From Aureimonas ureilytica (GTDB taxonomy: Bacteria; Pseudomonadota; Alphaproteobacteria; Rhizobiales; Rhizobiaceae), in contig NZ_LDQA01000065.1 of the NCBI RefSeq assembly GCF_001475935.1, positions 1 to 33,242 on the forward strand: a DNA stretch of 33,242 nucleotides, given 5' to 3'. Of this stretch, positions 13,958-33,242 are shown piece after piece (the first letter of the stretch is position 1; each line of letters begins with the position of its first letter). A program made the translations under genes and the position numbers. The notes beneath the pieces are model-generated. The model did not search any database. It was given only the letters and a program-made list of their open reading frames with translations, and was not told the origin of the DNA.

Positions 13958-14032
13958 GCGCCCGTCGTCTATCGGTTAGGACGCCACCCTTTCACGGTGG
14001 AGAGAGGGGTTCGATTCCCCTCGGGCGTACCA
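13958..14032 (+). tRNA. tRNA-Glu (anticodon TTC), copy 1
   Basis: The acceptor stem GCGCCCG pairs with CGGGCGT (G.T at position 1-72), the anticodon loop CTTTCAC gives TTC, the T arm reads GGGGTTCGATTCCCC and CCA is encoded at 14030-14032. Confidence 0.97.
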
Positions 14033-14138
14033 CATTCTTCGCATATCAAGCCGTTCAAGCGTGTTTCCGAGTTTGGCTCGGTCTCGTTATGAGCGTTGTT
14101 TTTCGAGCGGTGGGGCGTCTTCGAATTGCAATGATGGC

Positions 14139-14167
14139 TTGCGATAATACGCGACTCACCTTATAGA
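14139..14167 (+). promoter_or_regulatory. Promoter of tRNA-Glu copy 2
   Basis: TTGCGA (14139-14144), 17 bp, TATAGA (14162-14167), 11 nt before the mature tRNA. Confidence 0.72.
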
Positions 14168-14178
14168 GACCCTCGTCC

Positions 14179-14253
14179 GCGCCCGTCGTCTATCGGTTAG
14201 GACGCCACCCTTTCACGGTGGAGAGAGGGGTTCGATTCCCCTCGGGCGTACCA
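14179..14253 (+). tRNA. tRNA-Glu (anticodon TTC), copy 2
   Basis: Identical over all 75 nt to copy 1, including the encoded CCA. Confidence 0.97.
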
Positions 14254-14360
14254 CTCTTCTGTCGGTCTCAGGCCATTCAAGCGTACTTCCGAGTTTGGCT
14301 CGGGCTCCTTCTGAGTGCCGCTTTCCGAGCGGCGGTGCGTCTTTGAAGTGCAATAATGGC

Positions 14361-14389
14361 TTGCCATAACACGCGACTCACCTTATAGA
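14361..14389 (+). promoter_or_regulatory. Promoter of tRNA-Glu copy 3
   Basis: TTGCCA (14361-14366), 17 bp, TATAGA (14384-14389), 11 nt before the mature tRNA. Confidence 0.72.
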
Positions 14390-14400
14390 CGCCCTTGTCC

Positions 14401-14475
14401 GCGCCCGTCGTCTATCGGTTAGGACGCCACCCTTTCACGGTGGAGAGAGGGGTTCGATTCCCCTCGGGCGTACCA
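14401..14475 (+). tRNA. tRNA-Glu (anticodon TTC), copy 3
   Basis: Identical to copies 1 and 2, with encoded CCA. A 6-bp hairpin (14541-14546 with 14557-14562) lies downstream without a T-tract and could mark the end of the transcript. Confidence 0.97.
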
Positions 14476-25097: not shown

Positions 25098-26714
25098 TCA
25101 AGCCGGGGGGAGAATGCCTCCCGCTTGCTCCATCAGTTCGGGCGTATCGACGTCGAACGAGGCGGCGGAGCCGATGTCGATCTCGCGAACGATGTCGTGA
25201 TGCTGCTGCACGAGCTGTCTCGCACCGACATCGCCCTCGAGCCTAGCTATGTCTTCGCGAAAATCACTCGACAGGATCACGGGATTGGCGCGTCGCTCTC
25301 CGTCGCAGGCCAGAACGATCGAACCTTCTCCGGAGGGTTCGAAGGCTGCTATCAGCGTGTCGAGATGGGAGGGCGTCAGAAGGGGCTGATCCGCAAGCAT
25401 GACGAGGACGCCATCGGCATCCTGGGAGGCGGCTTCGAAGCCGCGTTTGAGCGAGGTCGATAGGCCTTCGGCATAATCGGGGTTGTCGTGTAGCACGACG
25501 TCCAGCCCTTCGATCGCGCGCCTCAACTCGCTCGACCTGTGACCCAGAACGACGTGGACCGATACCGCGCCGCATGCGAGCGCCGTTTCCACGGAGCGGC
25601 GAAGGAGCGGCTGACCATCGAACCTCGCCAGGAGTTTGTTCGGCCCGCCCATGCGACTGGAGCGGCCTGCCGCTAGGACGACGATCGCGACCCTCGGGGT
25701 AAGGGCCTCCAAGCGATTGATCTCGCGAGGCTGCGGGCGCGAGGCGATTTCCATCAGCAGGCCTCCCACGCCAAGACCCGTCAACTCCCGCGACGAGACT
25801 GGAAGATCGGCCAACAAGCGGTCGAGAACCCAGTCGAAACCGTTCTCACGTGGACTGCGCGCGCAGCCCGGTGCGCCGATGACGATCCGCTCGCCAAGAT
25901 GCCCCAGCAGCAGGAGATTGCCGGGATCGACGGGCATACCGAGGTGATCGACTTGGCCGCCGGCCAGCCGGATCGCAGCCGGGATGACATCATCCTCATC
26001 GATCACGGCCGACGCCCCGAAGACGATTGTCATCGCTTCGTCCGGGTGAGCCTGCGAGAGGGCTCGCCTCAATTCGTTTTCGTCATGCCCGACCCGCTCC
26101 TCCCGCAGGATATTCGAGCCCGTTCGCTTCAACCGTTCAGCCAGGACGGAGGCTGTCTTGTCGAGGATGCTGGGCTTCATCCCGGGAAGAGTGGTCTGCA
26201 CCAAGCCGACGCCGCGCCCGCGAAACGGCGCGAGGCGGAACGTCGCCTGGCCGGCCAGCAAGTCGGCGACCTGCTCGACTGCGGCACGCGGCACGGCGAG
26301 CGGAATGATCTTCACCGTCGCGACCATGCGGCCGGCCTCGACGCTCGCGAAATCGTCAAGCGTCGCGAGCGTGATGCCGGGATGAACGCGGTTGATCGCA
26401 TCCACAAGACGGCGATCGGCGAGAAACACGCCGGCCTCGCCCGCGAAGAGATTGGCTCGGCCGGTGGCGGCCGGCGCCCCGCCGATCTCGTCGCTTGCCA
26501 AGGCGTCGGCAATCGTGGCGGCGGCTTCGTCTTCGGGCAGATCGTCTGGACCAAGCCGTGCGACGATGACGCGATCGATTCCGGCCGCCAGAAGACGCTC
26601 CACATCATCTGACGTCAGACACCGCCCCTTGGGCAGTTTGCTGCAGCCGACCTGCGTCGCGTGGGCGAGAATGCAGCCTTGAGCTGACCGGCTCTCGACC
26701 GGCCCGAACTTCAC
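25098..26714 (-). CDS. Molybdopterin-binding domain / MocA-type nucleotidyltransferase fusion
   Basis: A 538-residue two-part protein. Residues about 1-330 contain a MoeA/MoaB-like molybdopterin-binding region (TLPGMKPSILDKTASVLAERL, then TIVFGASAVIDEDDVIPAAI and GAPGCARSPRENGFDWVLDRLL). Residues about 342-538 are a MobA-like NTP transferase (LAAGRSSRMGGPNKLL, LADQPLL). The likely role is to convert Mo-molybdopterin to the cytosine dinucleotide cofactor for molybdenum hydroxylases. The GTG at 26714 overlaps the upstream stop (GTGA) and has GGAGG 5 nt away. It is the last gene of the cox-like maturation operon. Confidence 0.92.
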   Translation of the reverse strand: MKFGPVESRSAQGCILAHATQVGCSKLPKGRCLTSDDVERLLAAGIDRVIVARLGPDDLPEDEAAATIADALASDEIGGAPAATGRANLFAGEAGVFLADRRLVDAINRVHPGITLATLDDFASVEAGRMVATVKIIPLAVPRAAVEQVADLLAGQATFRLAPFRGRGVGLVQTTLPGMKPSILDKTASVLAERLKRTGSNILREERVGHDENELRRALSQAHPDEAMTIVFGASAVIDEDDVIPAAIRLAGGQVDHLGMPVDPGNLLLLGHLGERIVIGAPGCARSPRENGFDWVLDRLLADLPVSSRELTGLGVGGLLMEIASRPQPREINRLEALTPRVAIVVLAAGRSSRMGGPNKLLARFDGQPLLRRSVETALACGAVSVHVVLGHRSSELRRAIEGLDVVLHDNPDYAEGLSTSLKRGFEAASQDADGVLVMLADQPLLTPSHLDTLIAAFEPSGEGSIVLACDGERRANPVILSSDFREDIARLEGDVGARQLVQQHHDIVREIDIGSAASFDVDTPELMEQAGGILPPA

Positions 26715-27418
26715 AACGCCTCCGTTTCGCCGCGCCGCTCGGCGTGCATCTTCCGCTTACGAAAAGCGGAAATAACCGAGCCGAGGATCGCCACCGCAAT
26801 TTCGGCGGGCGTCGAAGCACCGATGTCGAGCCCGATCGGCGCTTCGATCCGAGCCGTCTTATGGTCCGGCAGCCCCGCTGCGGCCAGCCGCTCCAGCCGT
26901 TTGGCATGGGTCTTCCGGCTTCCCAGCGCGCCGATATAGAAGCAGCCGGCCTTGATCGCTTCGATCAGTGGCAAATCATCGATCTTGGGATCGTGCGTCA
27001 CGGCCACCAGCGCGCAATAGGAATCGAGCGGCCGATCCTTCAGGACGAGCTCAGGCCATTCGGCTTGGAGACGAAGGCCGGGGAAGCGCTCGGGTGTCGC
27101 GAACGCCGTGCGCGGGTCGATGATCTCGATGTCGAACCCCGCGAGTTCCGCCATGGGCACCAAGGCCTGCGAGATATGCGCCGCCCCGATCACGACGATG
27201 CGCGGTGGAGGCAGATGCACGTTCAGGAAGAGGTCATCGCCCCGCCGCCCAGACTTTCCACTTCGAAGTGCTTTCGAAAGGTCCGGCGCGAGATCGTCCG
27301 CTTCGACCTCGGCCTCGCGAACGAGGCGCTGCGCGCCGCTGGTCAGATCCGTGACCAGAATGCAGGCGCGGCGAGCGAGGCGCTCTTCGTTCAAGGCCTT
27401 GAGAAGCGCGAGATCCAT
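26711..27418 (-). CDS. XdhC/CoxF family maturation protein (Rossmann-domain type)
   Basis: A 235-residue protein. The N-terminal 70 residues are a reduced XdhC_CoxI-like region (ARRACILVTDLTSGAQRLV). The rest is an XdhC Rossmann domain: RIVVIGAAHISQALVPMAELAGF, IIDPRTAFATPERFP, AVTHDPKIDDLPLIEAIKAG, YIGALGSRKTHAKRLERL, and PIGLDIGASTPAEIAVAILG. XdhC binds Mo-cofactor and passes it to the enzyme after sulfuration. Start and stop overlap neighbours by 4 nt each, so translation is coupled throughout. I regard it as a CoxF-like partner of the next gene. Confidence 0.92.
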   Translation of the reverse strand: MDLALLKALNEERLARRACILVTDLTSGAQRLVREAEVEADDLAPDLSKALRSGKSGRRGDDLFLNVHLPPPRIVVIGAAHISQALVPMAELAGFDIEIIDPRTAFATPERFPGLRLQAEWPELVLKDRPLDSYCALVAVTHDPKIDDLPLIEAIKAGCFYIGALGSRKTHAKRLERLAAAGLPDHKTARIEAPIGLDIGASTPAEIAVAILGSVISAFRKRKMHAERRGETEAL

Positions 27419-27747
27419 CAGGCCACCTTCTCTACATAGACGCAGATGCGCCCGCCGCAGGACAGGCCAACCCGCCAGGCTATTTCGTCCGCCACGCCGA
27501 ATTCCAGCATTCGCGGCGCGCCGGTTTCAATCACGTCCAGCGCTTCCGCCACCACCGCGCCTTCGACACAGCCACCGGAGACGGAACCGGCAAAATCTCC
27601 GGCTGCATCGATCACCAGATGACTTCCAACGGGTCTTGGCGCCGAACCCCAGGTTTCCACGACGGTCGCCAAGGCGACGCCGCGCCCATCCCGGCTCCAG
27701 TCTTCGGCGATTTGCAGGACGTCGCTCAATGCATGCAGCGTTTCCAT
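27418..27747 (-). CDS. XdhC/CoxI family protein, N-terminal-domain only
   Basis: A 109-residue stand-alone XdhC_CoxI domain. It has ALATVVETWGSAPRPVGSHLVID, the glycine-rich VSGGCVEGAVV and SCGGRICVYVE. In many XdhC proteins this domain is fused to the Rossmann domain; here the two are separate genes joined by an ATGA overlap. AAGGA lies 7 nt before the ATG at 27747. Likely works with the adjacent XdhC-type protein in molybdenum-cofactor insertion. Confidence 0.92.
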   Translation of the reverse strand: METLHALSDVLQIAEDWSRDGRGVALATVVETWGSAPRPVGSHLVIDAAGDFAGSVSGGCVEGAVVAEALDVIETGAPRMLEFGVADEIAWRVGLSCGGRICVYVEKVA

Positions 27748-27757
27748 CGTCTCGTCC

Positions 27758-29011
27758 TTAAGCCATCTCGCGGTTCAACGCATCGGAGCGCAACCAGTGC
27801 AGCGGCGATAGGTGGCCGCGATTCGCCCGGTTTTCCGTCAGAGCCTTGCAGAGCGCATCCAACGAGGCGACGGAGTGGACCGGGCGAAACTCATCGACAT
27901 GCGGCAGCATCGCCCTCATTCCCTTGGCCTTGGCCTCGAACCCGTCGAACCGCAGCAGCGGGTTCAGCCAGATGAGCCGACGGGAGGACAAATGGAGCCG
28001 CACCATCGCCTCTTCCAGTCGTTCCGTCTGATCGCGTTCCAAACCATCGGTGATCAGCAGCACCGTCGCGCCGCCCGATAGCACGCGGCGCGACCAGATC
28101 TTGTTGAAAGTCTCCAGGGCCTCGCCGATCCTTGTTCCGCCCGACCAGTCCCGCACGGCCGATGCCGCACGATCGACCGCTTCATCCGGGTCGCGGCGAG
28201 TCAGTTCGCGCGTGATATTGGTCAGCCGCGTCCCAAACAGAAACGTATGGACACGCCGGCGATGCGCCGTGATCGCGTGAAAGAAATGCAGGAACAGCCG
28301 GCTATACTGGCTCATGGAGCCGGAAATATCGGCGAGCACCACGAGCGGCGGCGGACGCATTCGGGCGGTTCGCCATTTTGGAAGAAGCAAGGCGCCGCCG
28401 GTTCGCACGCTGGCGCGCAGGCTTTCGCGCATATCCATCCGCTCGCCATGAGGAGCCGGGCGGAACCGCCGCGTGCGGCGTTCGTCGCCCGAGAAGGCGA
28501 TGCGGCGCACGGCTCGCTTGGCGTCCTCCAGCTCGGCCGCCGTCATCTGCGCGAAATCCTTGGTTCGCAGCACGTCTTCACCCGACATGGAGAAACGCGC
28601 GTCGATGTCGAGAATGGGTTTCTCACGCGGGGCTCCGTGCGGCGCTCCCGTCTGCGAGAAGGCGTCAGCGGCCCGCTGTGCACCCGCCCGCTTCTCGGCC
28701 GGCCGTGCTGGGGCACGACCGGAAAACAGAGCCAGCATTTTTTCGATCAGCTGGCGCGAGCGCCAGAACGTGTCGAAGACTTCCGCGAAGACAGTGCTGT
28801 CCTCGCGCCGATGCACGAAAACGGAATGCAGAACCCAATAGACATCCTCGCGCGAGCCGATCCCGCCGAGGCGGAGCGCCTCGATCGCGTCCAGCGTTTC
28901 GGCCGGCCCGGTCTTCAAACCGGCGCGGCGGAGCGCCCGAGCGAAATGGACGATGTTGTCGCCGAAGCGGCCGCTATCCGGGTTGGTGCCTAAGTCGCCC
29001 GTCGCTGGCAT
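27758..29011 (-). CDS. CoxE-like von Willebrand A domain protein
   Basis: A roughly 417-residue protein of the VWA-containing CoxE family. The N-terminal helical part (NIVHFARALRRAGLKTGPAETLDAIEAL) is family-typical. The MIDAS motif DISGS is at about residues 228-232, with later elements SGGTRIGEAL and VLLITDGLERDQ. With the MoxR ATPase encoded upstream it would remodel or mature the molybdenum hydroxylase; in Oligotropha CoxD and CoxE help build the CO dehydrogenase active site. Start uncertain: ATG 29011 lies 4 nt after the MoxR gene stop, while a GTG at 29035 overlaps it by 20 nt. Confidence 0.92.
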   Translation of the reverse strand: MPATGDLGTNPDSGRFGDNIVHFARALRRAGLKTGPAETLDAIEALRLGGIGSREDVYWVLHSVFVHRREDSTVFAEVFDTFWRSRQLIEKMLALFSGRAPARPAEKRAGAQRAADAFSQTGAPHGAPREKPILDIDARFSMSGEDVLRTKDFAQMTAAELEDAKRAVRRIAFSGDERRTRRFRPAPHGERMDMRESLRASVRTGGALLLPKWRTARMRPPPLVVLADISGSMSQYSRLFLHFFHAITAHRRRVHTFLFGTRLTNITRELTRRDPDEAVDRAASAVRDWSGGTRIGEALETFNKIWSRRVLSGGATVLLITDGLERDQTERLEEAMVRLHLSSRRLIWLNPLLRFDGFEAKAKGMRAMLPHVDEFRPVHSVASLDALCKALTENRANRGHLSPLHWLRSDALNREMA

Positions 29012-29015
29012 GTCG

Positions 29016-29927
29016 TCAGCCGACCGCCAGTTCACGCTTCACCGCATTTAGGATTTCGCGGCCTTCGCCCTTCTCGATGCGGGCGATATCGTCCTGATAT
29101 TTTAGGAGAACCCCGAGCGTGTCGGAGATCAGCGACGGATCGAGCGCGATGGCATCGAGTTCGGTCAGCGCGGTGGCCCAGTCGATCGTCTCGGCCACGC
29201 CCGGCGATTTGAAGAGATCGGCCGCGCGCAGCTTCTGCACGTAGCTGACGATCTCGCGGGAGAGATCATCGCTCGCGCCGGGTGCCTTCAGGCGGACGAT
29301 GGCCAGTTCCCGCTCGGCGCTGGGATAATCGACCCAGTGATAGAGGCAGCGGCGCTTCAGCGCGTCGTGGATTTCGCGCGTGCGGTTGGTCGTGATGACG
29401 ACGATCGGCGGGTCCTGCGCCCGGATCGTCCCGAATTCGGGAATGCTGACCTGATGGTCGGACAAGACCTCAAGGAGAAAGGCTTCGAAGGCTTCGTCCG
29501 TTCGGTCGAGCTCATCGATGAGCAGAACCGGCGCGCGGCCCGCTTCGCCTTCGAGCGCTTGGAGAACGGGCCGGCGGATCAGGAAACGTTCGGAGAAAAT
29601 ATCCGCCCGAAGCGCCTCGCTTGTCGCATCGCCGGCCGCCTCGCGCAGCCGGATTTCGATCATCTGCGCGGCGTGGTTCCACTCGTAGACGGCGGACGAG
29701 AGGTCGAGCCCTTCATAGCACTGGAGACGGATCAGCGGGCGATCCAACGCCTTGGACAGAACTTTGGCGAGTTCGGTCTTGCCGACACCCGCCTCCCCTT
29801 CGAGAAACAAGGGGCGACCCATCCTGAGCGCCAGGAAAAGAACCGTCGCCAACGAGCGATCGGCCACATAGTCCGCAGCCGCCAGGAGTTCGATGGTCTC
29901 ATCGATATGGGCCGGCAGATCACTCAC
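29016..29927 (-). CDS. CoxD-like MoxR-family AAA+ ATPase
   Basis: A roughly 303-residue AAA+ chaperone. Walker A GEAGVGKT lies about 45 residues in, Walker B LLIDELDR near 136, and the sensor-1 ITTNRTRE follows. The LQCYEGLDLSSAVYEWN segment and the LLEVLSDHQVSIPEFG insert are MoxR/CoxD-like. In Oligotropha CoxD functions in assembling the Mo-Cu site of CO dehydrogenase. Start: GGGAGG abuts the ATG at 29936 but is 9 nt from the GTG at 29927, which gives the family-like N terminus MSDLPAHIDET, so I prefer the GTG. Confidence 0.93.
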   Translation of the reverse strand: MSDLPAHIDETIELLAAADYVADRSLATVLFLALRMGRPLFLEGEAGVGKTELAKVLSKALDRPLIRLQCYEGLDLSSAVYEWNHAAQMIEIRLREAAGDATSEALRADIFSERFLIRRPVLQALEGEAGRAPVLLIDELDRTDEAFEAFLLEVLSDHQVSIPEFGTIRAQDPPIVVITTNRTREIHDALKRRCLYHWVDYPSAERELAIVRLKAPGASDDLSREIVSYVQKLRAADLFKSPGVAETIDWATALTELDAIALDPSLISDTLGVLLKYQDDIARIEKGEGREILNAVKRELAVG

Positions 29928-29975
29928 GGTCTTCATCCTCCCAGATGACAGTGGCTTCGCCCGCGCGGAACCGTT

Positions 29976-30485
29976 TTAGAGGCTATGATACCTTCGCGCG
30001 CGATACAAAAGACTGTTGCCGGCGGTCGGCTCCCCGATGGCCAGAACCTCGCCGACGATCACGCGGTGCGTAGCAACCGGGCGGCTGTCGATCACGCGGC
30101 AATCGAAGCTGATCAGCGCATCCATGAGAACGGGTGCATCCGTGACGAGACGCGTCCAGCGCCCTGCGGCAAATCGCGCTTCGAGCTCCAACTGGCCTTC
30201 TCCCGCGAAGGCGCGCGCGACCGGCTCGTTATGGGATGCCAGAAGATTGACCGCAAAGACGCCGTTCTGGTCGAAGCGCGTGTTCGCCAGACTGGTTTGG
30301 TTCAAGCAGAAGAGAACCGTCGGCGGTTCGTCCGAGACGGAACAGACCGACGTCACCGTCACGCCTCGTCGGCCGGCCGGACCATCCGTCGTCACGAGAC
30401 AGACCGGCGCGGCGAAATGGCTCATCGCCTCCCGGAAATGCACGCGGTCGGCAGGGGGATGAGAGGCGACACCGGACTTCAACAC
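29976..30485 (-). CDS. Flavin reductase family protein
   Basis: A roughly 169-residue flavin reductase-like (HpaC/RutF type) protein with an FMN-binding split barrel. Visible marks are FREAMSHFAAPVCLVTTDG, GVTVTSVCSVSDEPPTVLFCLN and FAVNLLASH, then the C-terminal HRVIVGEVLAI. It would supply reduced flavin to a monooxygenase or act as an NAD(P)H:FMN reductase. The start is uncertain: GTG 30485 gives the usual length, ATG 30425 would cut into the fold. It lies 39-48 nt upstream of the MoxR gene on the same strand, so is probably the first gene of the maturation operon. Confidence 0.8.
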   Translation of the reverse strand: MLKSGVASHPPADRVHFREAMSHFAAPVCLVTTDGPAGRRGVTVTSVCSVSDEPPTVLFCLNQTSLANTRFDQNGVFAVNLLASHNEPVARAFAGEGQLELEARFAAGRWTRLVTDAPVLMDALISFDCRVIDSRPVATHRVIVGEVLAIGEPTAGNSLLYRARRYHSL

Positions 30486-30601
30486 AAGGCTTTTCCCAGA
30501 GCTTCCCGACTCGCGGAGGATGCAAGTCGTCCGTTTAAGATAGAAGAGTCTGTTGAAGAATGAATGGCCCTGCGCCCGGTCCTTTCGCGGTCGCTCGGGA
30601 T

Positions 30602-30629
30602 TTGACAAATCAACGGCATCGCGTATGGG
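30602..30629 (+). promoter_or_regulatory. Candidate promoter of the liv-type operon
   Basis: A consensus TTGACA (30602-30607) is followed after 16 bp by TATGGG (30624-30629), about 57 nt before the first liv-type ATG. No other strong pair was seen in the 200 nt between the divergent operons. Confidence 0.5.
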
Positions 30630-30686
30630 GGCCGCTTCGCCTTTCATCGTCGCATCACATGCGCCCGCCGAACGGAGCGACCCGTC

Positions 30687-31490
30687 ATGGCTCCAATGAT
30701 CGAAGTCAAGAACGTCACCCGTCGCTTCGGCGGCTTCGTGGCGGTCAACGATTGCAGTCTTTCCGTCGAAAAGGGCAGCATTACCGGGCTGATCGGGCCG
30801 AACGGTGCCGGTAAGTCGACTTTGTTCAACATGGTGGCCGGCAATTTGGAGCCGAGTTCGGGCGCCATCTTTCTGGATGGTCGGGAGATTACGGGCCTGA
30901 AGCCGCATCAGCTTTTCGGCCGTGGCCTCCTGCGCACCTTCCAGATCGCCCATGAGTTCTCGCGCCTCACCGTTCTGGAAAACCTGATGATGGTGCCGGC
31001 GGGTCAGCCCGGCGAGAACCTGTTCGATGCCTGGTTTCGCGGTCGCAAGGTGCGAGAGTTCGAGCGCGGCGTGCGCGAGCGCGCCGAAGAGGTCGTGGAC
31101 TTTCTCCAGATCGGCCATGTGCAAAACGAGCTGGCCGGCAATCTCTCCGGCGGCCAGAAGAAGCTCGTCGAACTCGGCCGGACCATGATGGTGGATGCCA
31201 AGGTCGTGCTGCTCGACGAAATCGCCGCCGGCGTGAACCGCACGCTTCTCAACGATCTCGCCAGCAATATCGAGCGTCTCAACCGCGAGCGCGGCTACAC
31301 GTTCTTCGTCATCGAGCACGACATGGACCTGATCGGTCGCCTCTGCGACCCCGTCGTGGTCATGGCGGCCGGGTCGGTCATGATGAAGGGCTCGCTCGCC
31401 GAGATTCAGGCCGACGAGCGCGTGGTGGAAGCCTATTTCGGCGGCTCGCCCACGGGACATGCCACCAGCCTGCCCGGAGCCACGGCATGA
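30687..31490 (+). CDS. livG: Branched-chain amino acid type ABC transporter ATP-binding protein (LivG-like)
   Basis: A 267-residue ABC ATPase of the HAAT class. Walker A GPNGAGKST is at residues 37-45, the signature is LSGGQKKLVELGR, and Walker B is KVVLLDEIAAGVN. The last motif is unusual: the Walker B line continues as E-I-A-A-G-V-N rather than the common E-P-x-A-G-L-N. The C terminus has FFVIEHDMDLIGRLCD. It pairs with the LivF-like protein. GGAG is 9 nt before the ATG. The stop overlaps the next ATG (ATGA). Substrate of such systems ranges over amino acids, amides, urea and aromatic acids. Confidence 0.93.
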   Translation: MAPMIEVKNVTRRFGGFVAVNDCSLSVEKGSITGLIGPNGAGKSTLFNMVAGNLEPSSGAIFLDGREITGLKPHQLFGRGLLRTFQIAHEFSRLTVLENLMMVPAGQPGENLFDAWFRGRKVREFERGVRERAEEVVDFLQIGHVQNELAGNLSGGQKKLVELGRTMMVDAKVVLLDEIAAGVNRTLLNDLASNIERLNRERGYTFFVIEHDMDLIGRLCDPVVVMAAGSVMMKGSLAEIQADERVVEAYFGGSPTGHATSLPGATA

Positions 31491-32191
31491 GCCTTCTTTC
31501 GGTTCGCGGGGTCGTCGCCGGCTATGGCGCGGCCACCATCCTGAACGGCGTCGATATCGCGCTGGAAGCGGGCGAGATCGGCGTCATCGTCGGACCCAAC
31601 GGCGCGGGCAAGTCCACGACGCTCAAGGCCATTTTCGGCCTGCTGCGCGTATCCTCCGGCTCCATCACCTTCGACGGGCAGGACATCACCAACCGCCCGA
31701 CCGAGAGCCTCAGCGCTCTCCGCATGGCCTTCGTGCCGCAGGAGCATAATGTCTTTCGGACATTGAGTGTGCACGAGAATTTGGAAATGGGCGCCTATGT
31801 CCGCAAGGACGATGTGTCCGCCCTGCTCGATCGCGTCTATCAAATCTTCCCGCCGCTGAAGGCCAAACGAAACCAACCGGCGGGCGAGTTGTCGGGCGGA
31901 CAGCGCCAGATGGTGGCGGTTGGCCGCGCGCTGATGATCGATCCCAAGCTGATCCTGCTGGACGAGCCGACGGCCGGCCTGTCGCCGCTTTTCATGAGCG
32001 AAATCTTCGACCGCATCCTCGCCATCAACGCAACCGGCGTGACCGTCGCGATGGTGGAGCAGAACGCCAAGCAGGCGCTTGGGATCGCGCACAAGGGTTT
32101 CGTGCTCGCCGGCGGGCGCAATCGATTCACCGATAGCGGCGCGGCGCTTCTCGCCGATCCCGACGTCGCGAAATCCTTCCTCGGCGGCTGA
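31487..32191 (+). CDS. livF: Branched-chain amino acid type ABC transporter ATP-binding protein (LivF-like)
   Basis: A 234-residue ABC ATPase. Walker A GPNGAGKST is at residues 36-44, the signature LSGGQRQMVAVGRALM follows, and Walker B is LILLDEPTAGLSP. VPQEHNVFRTLSVHENLEMG is the Q-loop region and VEQNAKQAL the C-terminal switch. Second ATPase of the transporter, translationally coupled to livG by a 4-nt overlap. Confidence 0.95.
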   Translation: MSLLSVRGVVAGYGAATILNGVDIALEAGEIGVIVGPNGAGKSTTLKAIFGLLRVSSGSITFDGQDITNRPTESLSALRMAFVPQEHNVFRTLSVHENLEMGAYVRKDDVSALLDRVYQIFPPLKAKRNQPAGELSGGQRQMVAVGRALMIDPKLILLDEPTAGLSPLFMSEIFDRILAINATGVTVAMVEQNAKQALGIAHKGFVLAGGRNRFTDSGAALLADPDVAKSFLGG

Positions 32192-32219
32192 CGCCAGCAT
32201 CAAGACAACGGGGCCAGCC

Positions 32220-33212
32220 GTGGACGAGCTGATCTTCTTCATCAATCGCGGCGTGGTCGGCGGGCTGATCATCGGCTCCGTCTATGCGCTGGGCGCGGTC
32301 GGCGTGACGCTGATCTTCGGCATCCTGCGCTTTGCGCATTTCGCCCATGGCGACATGATGACGGCGAGCGCCTTCATCGCGCTGGCGCTGGCAGGGCTCC
32401 TGTCGGCGCTTGGCGTGAGCCTGCCCATTCCGCTGGTGCTGGCGCTTCTGCCGGTCGTGATGGCGCTGACGGCGCTGTTCGCCATCGGGCTGGACAAGGC
32501 CTTCTATCAGCCGCTGCGCCGGCGCGGGGCGAAGCCGGTCGTGCTGGTCATGGCGTCGATCGGCGTCACGCTGATGCTCCAAGGCGTCATCCGCCTCTTC
32601 GGCGGCACAGGCTCGCGGGACATGTATCTGGAGGCTCCCAAGGCGATCTATCGCATCCCGACCGGCGGACGCCCCATCATTCTGACCGAGCCGCAGCTCG
32701 TGCTGATCGCGCTCACGATTCTCTCGGTCATCGCGCTGCATCTGTTTCTGACGCGCTCGCGCCTTGGCAAGGCCATGCGCGCCGTCTCGGACAATCCCGA
32801 TCTGGCGCGCGTGACGGGCATTCCGATCGAGCGAGTCGTCAAGGCGACTTGGGCGATCGGCGGGGGCCTCGCCGCCATCGCGGGGACGATGCTGGCGATG
32901 GACGTGCAGCTGAAGCCCGACCTTGCCTACAACATCCTCCTGCCGATCTTTGCGGCGGCCATCGTCGGTGGCATTGGCCAGCCCTATGGTGGGATCGCGG
33001 GCGGCTATCTCATCGGCTTTGCCGAGACGCTGGCGGTTTTCAACTTCTCGGTTCTGCTGCGGCCCTTCCGGGATTGGCTTCCAGCCGGAACGGAAATCCC
33101 GGCGAGCCTCGCCATGGTGCCGACGGAATATCGGCTCGTCGTGCCCTTCTTCATTCTCGTGGCCGTCCTGATCTACCGGCCGACCGGCATCTTCAAGGGA
33201 CGGGTGTTCTGA
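32220..33212 (+). CDS. livH: Branched-chain amino acid type ABC transporter permease (LivH-like)
   Basis: A 330-residue inner-membrane permease. The N terminus MDELIFFINRGVVGGLIIGSVYALGAVGVTLIFGILRFAHFAHGDMM is LivH-like. It has about eight membrane segments, and the cytoplasmic coupling loop is near SRLGKAMRAVSDNPDLARVTGI. The GTG at 32220 is chosen (GGGG just upstream); the longer in-frame ORF would run back into livF. Its stop overlaps the next ATG (TGATG). Confidence 0.93.
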   Translation: MDELIFFINRGVVGGLIIGSVYALGAVGVTLIFGILRFAHFAHGDMMTASAFIALALAGLLSALGVSLPIPLVLALLPVVMALTALFAIGLDKAFYQPLRRRGAKPVVLVMASIGVTLMLQGVIRLFGGTGSRDMYLEAPKAIYRIPTGGRPIILTEPQLVLIALTILSVIALHLFLTRSRLGKAMRAVSDNPDLARVTGIPIERVVKATWAIGGGLAAIAGTMLAMDVQLKPDLAYNILLPIFAAAIVGGIGQPYGGIAGGYLIGFAETLAVFNFSVLLRPFRDWLPAGTEIPASLAMVPTEYRLVVPFFILVAVLIYRPTGIFKGRVF

Positions 33213-33242
33213 TGACCGATGCTTCCGCCTCTCGTGCTCGCC
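33212..33242 (+). CDS. Start of the next gene, probably the LivM-like permease (3' partial)
   Basis: An ATG overlapping the livH stop opens a frame (MTDASASRAR) that runs off the window edge. Ten codons cannot identify the product. LivM is inferred purely from the usual gene order. Confidence 0.55.
   Translation, partial: MTDASASRAR

Follow-up and report, generated by a model that had tools for sequence, protein, structure and literature searches.

A CoxDE-, XdhC- and MocA-type operon of Aureimonas ureilytica as a probable maturation unit for an unlinked form II CoxSLM enzyme

Among the closest described relatives of the system considered here is the cox cluster of Oligotropha carboxidovorans, in which, according to the part of the description available to us (PMC4240915), a MoxR ATPase, a VWA protein and an XdhC-type protein act jointly in maturation of the molybdenum site, with CoxD assigned to molybdenum sulfuration and CoxE and CoxF to copper delivery. 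An ATPase and a VWA protein are likewise needed for insertion of a metal cofactor into one enzyme in the NorQ/NorD system (PMC9976466, as covered in its accessible portion). Unlike in the present case, the client of that pair is nitric oxide reductase. To our knowledge, NorQ and NorD have no XdhC or MocA partner genes. Xanthine dehydrogenase systems resemble the locus in their XdhC domains and MobA-like CTP transferase. Here we describe a window of 33,242 bp from Aureimonas ureilytica, which is the whole stretch of DNA analyzed and the entire contig C146 of a 183-contig draft genome (G000, 99.5% complete). Its minus strand carries, between positions 25098 and 30482, an operon transcribed in the order flavin reductase, MoxR (CoxD-type), CoxE, CoxI, CoxF and MocA. 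We consider it probable, judging from gene content and its distribution among relatives, that this operon is a trans-acting maturation unit in which CoxD and CoxE act specifically for a form II (AYRGAGR) CoxSLM enzyme whose genes lie at another place in the genome, and CoxI, CoxF and MocA are shared with other enzymes.

A MoxR-type AAA+ ATPase with Walker A and Walker B motifs adjoins a VWA_CoxE protein with a DxSxS motif, which makes the two a CoxDE-type pair. The DxSxS motif reads DISGS at residue 236 of CoxE and is unchanged in 13 relatives. An RGD motif, invoked for the contact between CoxE and CoxF in Oligotropha (PMC4240915, in the part available), is also present at residue 59 of the CoxF of the window. 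On the other hand, the operon differs from the Oligotropha cluster by its split XdhC, its MocA fusion and its flavin reductase. Unlike xanthine dehydrogenase systems, where XdhC is one protein, the window distributes it over two genes that share an operon with CoxDE: the NCBIfam XdhC_rel_AOR model is covered at positions 8-100 by CoxI and at positions 175-342 by CoxF. Finally, coxD, coxE and coxF of Oligotropha adjoin the form I genes coxMSL, whereas the pair in the window co-occurs with a form II CoxL to which it is unlinked.

The candidate client class was first noticed among the listed matches to the large-subunit family PF02738, and genes in relatives were located by tblastn. Among 61 relatives, a CoxL of this class was found at 1113-1828 bits in 30 of the 31 genomes with a CoxE of at least 320 bits and in none of the 30 others, the next-best CoxL scores being 971 bits (in a genome already holding one) and 622 bits (in a genome lacking a CoxE ortholog). 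Two order-wide scans, scoring the top 5 and the top 2 candidates per genome respectively, were evaluated over 347 genomes with thresholds of at least 320 bits or E<1e-85 for CoxE and at least 1100 bits or E=0 for CoxL. Both proteins were found in 153 genomes, CoxE only in 17, CoxL only in 3 and neither in 174; CoxL thus occurred in 153/170 genomes with CoxE versus 3/177 others (Fisher p 4e-74, with relatedness ignored). Every coxSLM locus scanned (28/28) encodes the active-site loop AYRGAGR, with the genes in the order S-L-M, the same loop and order that the accessible parts of PMC7645674 and PMC8235418 give for form II coxSLM in Aminobacter and further Hyphomicrobiales. Within the genus, CoxE-bearing congeners carry coxS and coxL in nine of nine cases and coxM in eight, the remaining locus (L098) ending before coxM.

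Natural losses of the pair were also found. CoxE is absent from 11 of 21 congeners. The operon site was read in ten of these, and in all ten exactly MoxR and CoxE are gone, with flavin reductase, CoxI and CoxF kept; the alignment distance from flavin reductase to CoxI is 28-104 nt at these sites versus ~2.2-2.3 kb in the eight congeners with CoxE that allowed the measurement. MocA is whole at five of the ten sites and reduced to its nucleotidyltransferase half in G003, G005, G012, G014 and G015. In the eleventh congener (G018), no MocA ortholog was found and the operon site itself was unread. A form II CoxL of the AYRGAGR class is absent from all 11 CoxE-less congeners, which hold 2-10 other PF02738 proteins among the matches listed. 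On a tree of 24 genomes built from eight markers, all from the operon region, five losses of coxDE were placed when regain was excluded (G004; G019; G009 with G020; G005 with G012, G014 and G015; G003 with G007). The joint absence of coxD, coxE and the enzyme hints at the role of both genes. Since coxDE alone were lost together with the form II CoxL and the rest was kept, CoxD and CoxE look dedicated to that enzyme, and the XdhC-type proteins and MocA look shared. Outside the genus, one genome (G036) has CoxI-CoxF-MocA without coxDE, flavin reductase or a CoxL of this class. The flavin reductase was itself considered as a factor specific to form II CoxL and rejected, because it is kept at all ten sites lacking coxDE and CoxL. 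As a separate observation, the molybdopterin-binding half of MocA was seemingly lost alongside coxDE at L153 and L155-L158, unlike in the other five coxDE-less congeners.

In other families, the two parts lie together. Contiguous coxS-L-M-MoxR-CoxE-CoxI-CoxF-MocA clusters were found at L103, L104, L105, L106, L167 and L168, with radC-map beyond the cluster in L104, L105, L167 and L168. Among the 134 genomes for which coordinates of both genes were listed, coxE and coxL are at most 15 kb apart in 50 and not so in 84; the latter is an upper figure, as it also counts pairs split between contigs, some of them close to contig ends (in G059, contigs of 4.2 and 7.3 kb), and 17 of the 84 by hand count are on the same contig yet more than 15 kb apart. 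A linked CoxL never scored above 1244 bits against the query. In the congener G013, the operon at 2.34 Mb and the form II coxL at 1.48 Mb are ~0.86 Mb apart on one contig. These patterns fit a separation of the two parts in an ancestor shared by much of the order. In G230 (L170), coxDE-CoxI-CoxF-MocA stand beside coxS and a coxM homolog with no coxL, and a form II coxL lies ~2.2 Mb off on the same contig, an arrangement that is perhaps an intermediate of the split.

A search of the whole source genome showed four PF02738 large subunits (on C120, C105, C162 and C127). None lies on C153, the inferred right-hand neighbor of the window, and none on C146, the latter in agreement with the original prediction that the window holds no structural enzyme gene. 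These four were rejected as the co-occurring client, since none has the loop AYRGAGR or AYxCSFR. The fourth (L009, on C127) sits close to one end of a contig of 12.4 kb that also has transposase-like open reading frames, recognized by eye, and the xanthine-dehydrogenase-like locus L006 has a separate XdhC-like open reading frame, also by eye. The coxSLM region of G013 aligns with the source genome up to the final base of contig C124, and the alignment picks up again at base 4 of C99. C124 ends 26 nt past an intact coxS (166 residues), C99 opens with the flank of coxM, and the stretch missing between them corresponds to 3,758 nt in G013 containing coxL and coxM. Because homologous ends lie on both sides, the break is probably a gap in the assembly and not a deletion. 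The unlinked form II coxSLM is the likely client of the operon.

Several observations weigh against this assignment. Neither coxL nor coxM was found in a search of the whole G000 assembly, so that the client in this strain itself is inferred. The score thresholds were picked after the gap between scores was visible, and the genomes are related, so the co-occurrence counts are not independent. If regain is allowed, four events replace the five losses, and several nodes of the tree have support of 45-87. A total of 17 of the 170 genomes with strong CoxE lack a full-scoring CoxL, G000 among them. Six of these contain a fragmented or divergent CoxL of 58-79% identity (G125, G138, G156, G240, G248 and G282), and four are incomplete genomes of 58-84% completeness (G062, G085, G114 and G198). 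The six others (G076, G116, G151, G181, G286 and G357) are near-complete CoxDE genomes in which a more distant CoxL, at 44-47% identity, is the sole AYRGAGR CoxL found. Among the three CoxL-only genomes, two have contig ends cut beside a partial MoxR or CoxE (L165 and L166); the third, the complete-looking G293, has a form II coxSLM (L159) and no CoxE match and looks like a true exception. The CoxL proteins of 44-47% identity form a second AYRGAGR clade at L261-L266. We do not claim this distant clade as a client, because G038, which has no CoxE ortholog, has a best CoxL match of 43% identity (its loop was not read).

A putative division of steps follows from what is known of the protein families. 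MocA would attach CMP to molybdopterin, giving molybdopterin cytosine dinucleotide. The split XdhC formed by CoxI and CoxF would bind the sulfurated cofactor, shield it and hand it over. CoxD and CoxE would spend ATP to remodel folded apo-CoxSLM so that its molybdenum site can be completed. CoxI, CoxF and MocA may also serve other molybdenum hydroxylases of the cell. The cysteine of the form I CoxL loop (AYRCSFR) holds copper, and the form II client loop is without it. If CoxE is dedicated to such a client, copper delivery is therefore unlikely to be its sole or original task; in contrast, CoxF, the copper carrier in the Oligotropha model, belongs to the part of the operon that is kept in genomes without the form II enzyme. 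A stronger version, quite possible yet short of likely in our judgment, is that CoxD and CoxE are obligate chaperones of form II CoxL whose ancestral task was completion or remodeling of the molybdenum site (e.g., sulfuration), not copper insertion, and that the pair was kept with form II CoxL after the genes separated in much of the Hyphomicrobiales.

Alternatively, the whole operon including CoxDE could serve the maturation of all molybdenum hydroxylases of the cell alike, with no dedicated client. Part of it does appear general, since CoxI, CoxF, a whole or half MocA and flavin reductase persist without a form II CoxL, and the six near-complete CoxDE genomes with just a more distant AYRGAGR CoxL would also agree with such a role. 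However, CoxD and CoxE are gone from every congener without form II CoxL despite the other PF02738 proteins listed there, and we regard a role without a dedicated client as improbable. That the operon matures a form I CO dehydrogenase, as in Oligotropha, would match the families to which CoxD, CoxE, CoxF and CoxI belong; nevertheless, the AYxCSFR loop is absent from all four PF02738 loci of the source genome, with a small reserve left by the coxL gap, and from all 28 co-occurring coxSLM loci. Moreover, the two form I coxL loci read (AYRCSFR; L150 and L152) each have another CoxE (28-31% identity) and another MoxR (50-52%) next to them. This makes a form I client the least probable of the alternatives, to the point of being hardly credible.

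The original prediction had joined the operon to the Liv-type transporter genes that diverge from it, as one uptake-and-hydroxylation system, possibly for an N-heterocycle, whose catalytic subunits would lie just to the right, within about 15 kb. The divergent arrangement is real, with the intergenic region close to the ~200 nt proposed. The first LivM codons lie at positions 33212-33242, and LivM resumes from ~base 42 of contig C153 (13,261 bp), the right-hand neighbor inferred by synteny. C153 encodes LivM, DUF3140, a binding protein (on the opposite strand), peptidase S58 and purB, with domains assigned from the G013 orthologs. C146 and C153 together therefore hold a full Liv (HAAT) transporter set, with a pair of ATPases, two permeases of the BPD_transp_2 family and a binding protein of the Peripla_BP_6 family, and the binding protein is where it had been expected, on C153 as well as in 11 congener loci. 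Its relatives in the PDB are headed by Leu/Ile/Val-binding proteins, with no specific substrate indicated. The catalytic subunits are not there: C153 and the 11 congener loci continue with LivM, the binding protein, S58 and purB, and no molybdo-hydroxylase genes were seen in the 13.3 kb of C153 or in ~14.7 kb past the LivH start in G013. CoxDE are accordingly not linked to structural genes of such an enzyme within C146 or C153. Beyond purB, the G013 strand continues with open reading frames read by eye as purC, purS and purQ (ten open reading frames of this locus, L043, were scanned with Pfam).

The pairing itself did not hold up across relatives. LivH orthologs (at least 74% identity) occur in 13 of 21 congeners, with a tilt in favor of one system (8/10 CoxE-bearing versus 5/11 CoxE-less). 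However, the transporter is kept without coxDE in five congeners (G004, G007, G009, G019 and G020), and CoxE occurs without such a LivH in two others (G001 and G011). Eleven congener loci have the full run LivM-(DUF3140)-binding protein-S58-purB, both with coxDE (G006, G008, G010, G013, G016 and G017) and without (the five just named). Related transporters of 59-74% identity were found in 20-kb loci free of cox proteins (L127 and L128, in G040 and G022). Among 60 named loci with full flanks (of 80; the 20 with short flanks were omitted), the flavin reductase-MoxR-CoxE-CoxI-CoxF-MocA order is found in 53, purB in 48, coxSLM in 2 and the transporter in one, that of A. phyllosphaerae. As transporter and coxDE are separable, we rejected Liv as a part of the maturation system and judge it an independent neighbor; a joint uptake-and-hydroxylation system is very unlikely. 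A DUF3140 protein adjoins LivM in most transporter-bearing congeners (e.g., L093 near 11569 and L043:12970-13329).

The features of the window are listed in Table 1. Pfam confirmed the predicted list of molybdenum-hydroxylase maturation genes and the divergent LivG, LivF and LivH; the Pfam-wide scan covered 20 of the 115 open reading frames listed for the window. Of the 4-nt overlaps predicted at the three distal junctions, the one between MocA and CoxF was recovered; CoxF and CoxI overlap by 1 nt (TGATG), and CoxI and CoxE are separated by 10 nt. CoxE starts with either GTG at 29035, which gives a 20-nt overlap with MoxR, or an internal ATG at 29011, which leaves a spacing of 4 nt. The start codon of the flavin reductase, a conserved first gene of the operon, is uncertain. 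The CoxD-type ATPase matched the NCBIfam MadB-family ATPase model at E 8e-79, yet under the cut-off of that model. The MocA fusion scored E 9e-7 with MoCF_biosynth, E 8e-40 with NTP_transf_3 and 140 bits with NCBIfam MocA/YgfJ (under cut-off). Apart from the operon, three tRNA-Glu (TTC) genes stand in tandem at 13958-14475, with equal Rfam scores and a spacing of ~220 nt.

Table 1. Genes of the maturation operon and of its divergent neighbor in the window
Feature	Coordinates	Strand	Evidence
Flavin reductase, RutF/HpaC-like	29976..30482	-	PF01613 E 6e-36; NCBIfam RutF 170 bits, under cut-off
CoxD-type MoxR AAA+ ATPase	29016..29936	-	AAA_5 E 3e-11; Walker A GEAGVGKT, Walker B VLLIDE
CoxE-type VWA protein	27758..29035	-	VWA_CoxE PF05762 E 1e-71; DxSxS motif
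CoxI-type, XdhC N-terminal domain only	27418..27747	-	XdhC_CoxI PF02625 E 8e-27
CoxF-type, XdhC C-terminal (Rossmann) domain	26711..27418	-	XdhC_C PF13478 E 2e-38
MocA-type fusion, N-terminal MoCF molybdopterin-binding and C-terminal MobA-like nucleotidyltransferase	25098..26714	-	PF00994, PF12804
Divergent intergenic region	30483..30686	.	204 nt if flavin reductase starts at 30482
LivG-type ATPase (neighbor)	30687..31490	+	PF00005, PF12399; LivG 207 bits, under cut-off
LivF-type ATPase (neighbor)	31487..32191	+	PF00005; LivF 210 bits, under cut-off
LivH-type permease (neighbor)	32220..33212	+	PF02653; start taken from sequence

Neither form II enzymes with their S-L-M order nor the CoxDE and XdhC families are new, and the locus is best seen as a system of known kind whose parts are split. 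In the portions of PMC7645674 and PMC8235418 available, the form II cluster of Aminobacter is described by coxSLM, with accessory genes named for form I only; in contrast to these descriptions, an unlinked candidate accessory locus is proposed here for form II. According to the accessible part of PMC5747140, which also cites form-II-only isolates oxidizing CO, coxG varies less than coxD, coxE and coxF among the accessory genes of form II. Elsewhere, the physiological substrate of form II enzymes is considered to be something other than CO (PMC6794299), and the activity of form II CoxL is called unresolved (PMC13240472), both in the sections at hand. We recognized no description of an unlinked coxDE operon as a form II accessory locus in the literature covered, which consisted of titles and the starts of abstracts and mostly excluded subscription literature.

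If the proposed assignment is true, the form II CoxL enzymes common in this order would gain a candidate accessory operon, stably placed next to purB/S58 and radC/map, which should be included when form II CoxSLM is expressed heterologously to find its substrate. The natural deletions would then separate enzyme-specific factors (CoxD and CoxE) from shared ones (XdhC and MocA), which suggests a division of labor in the maturation of these enzymes.

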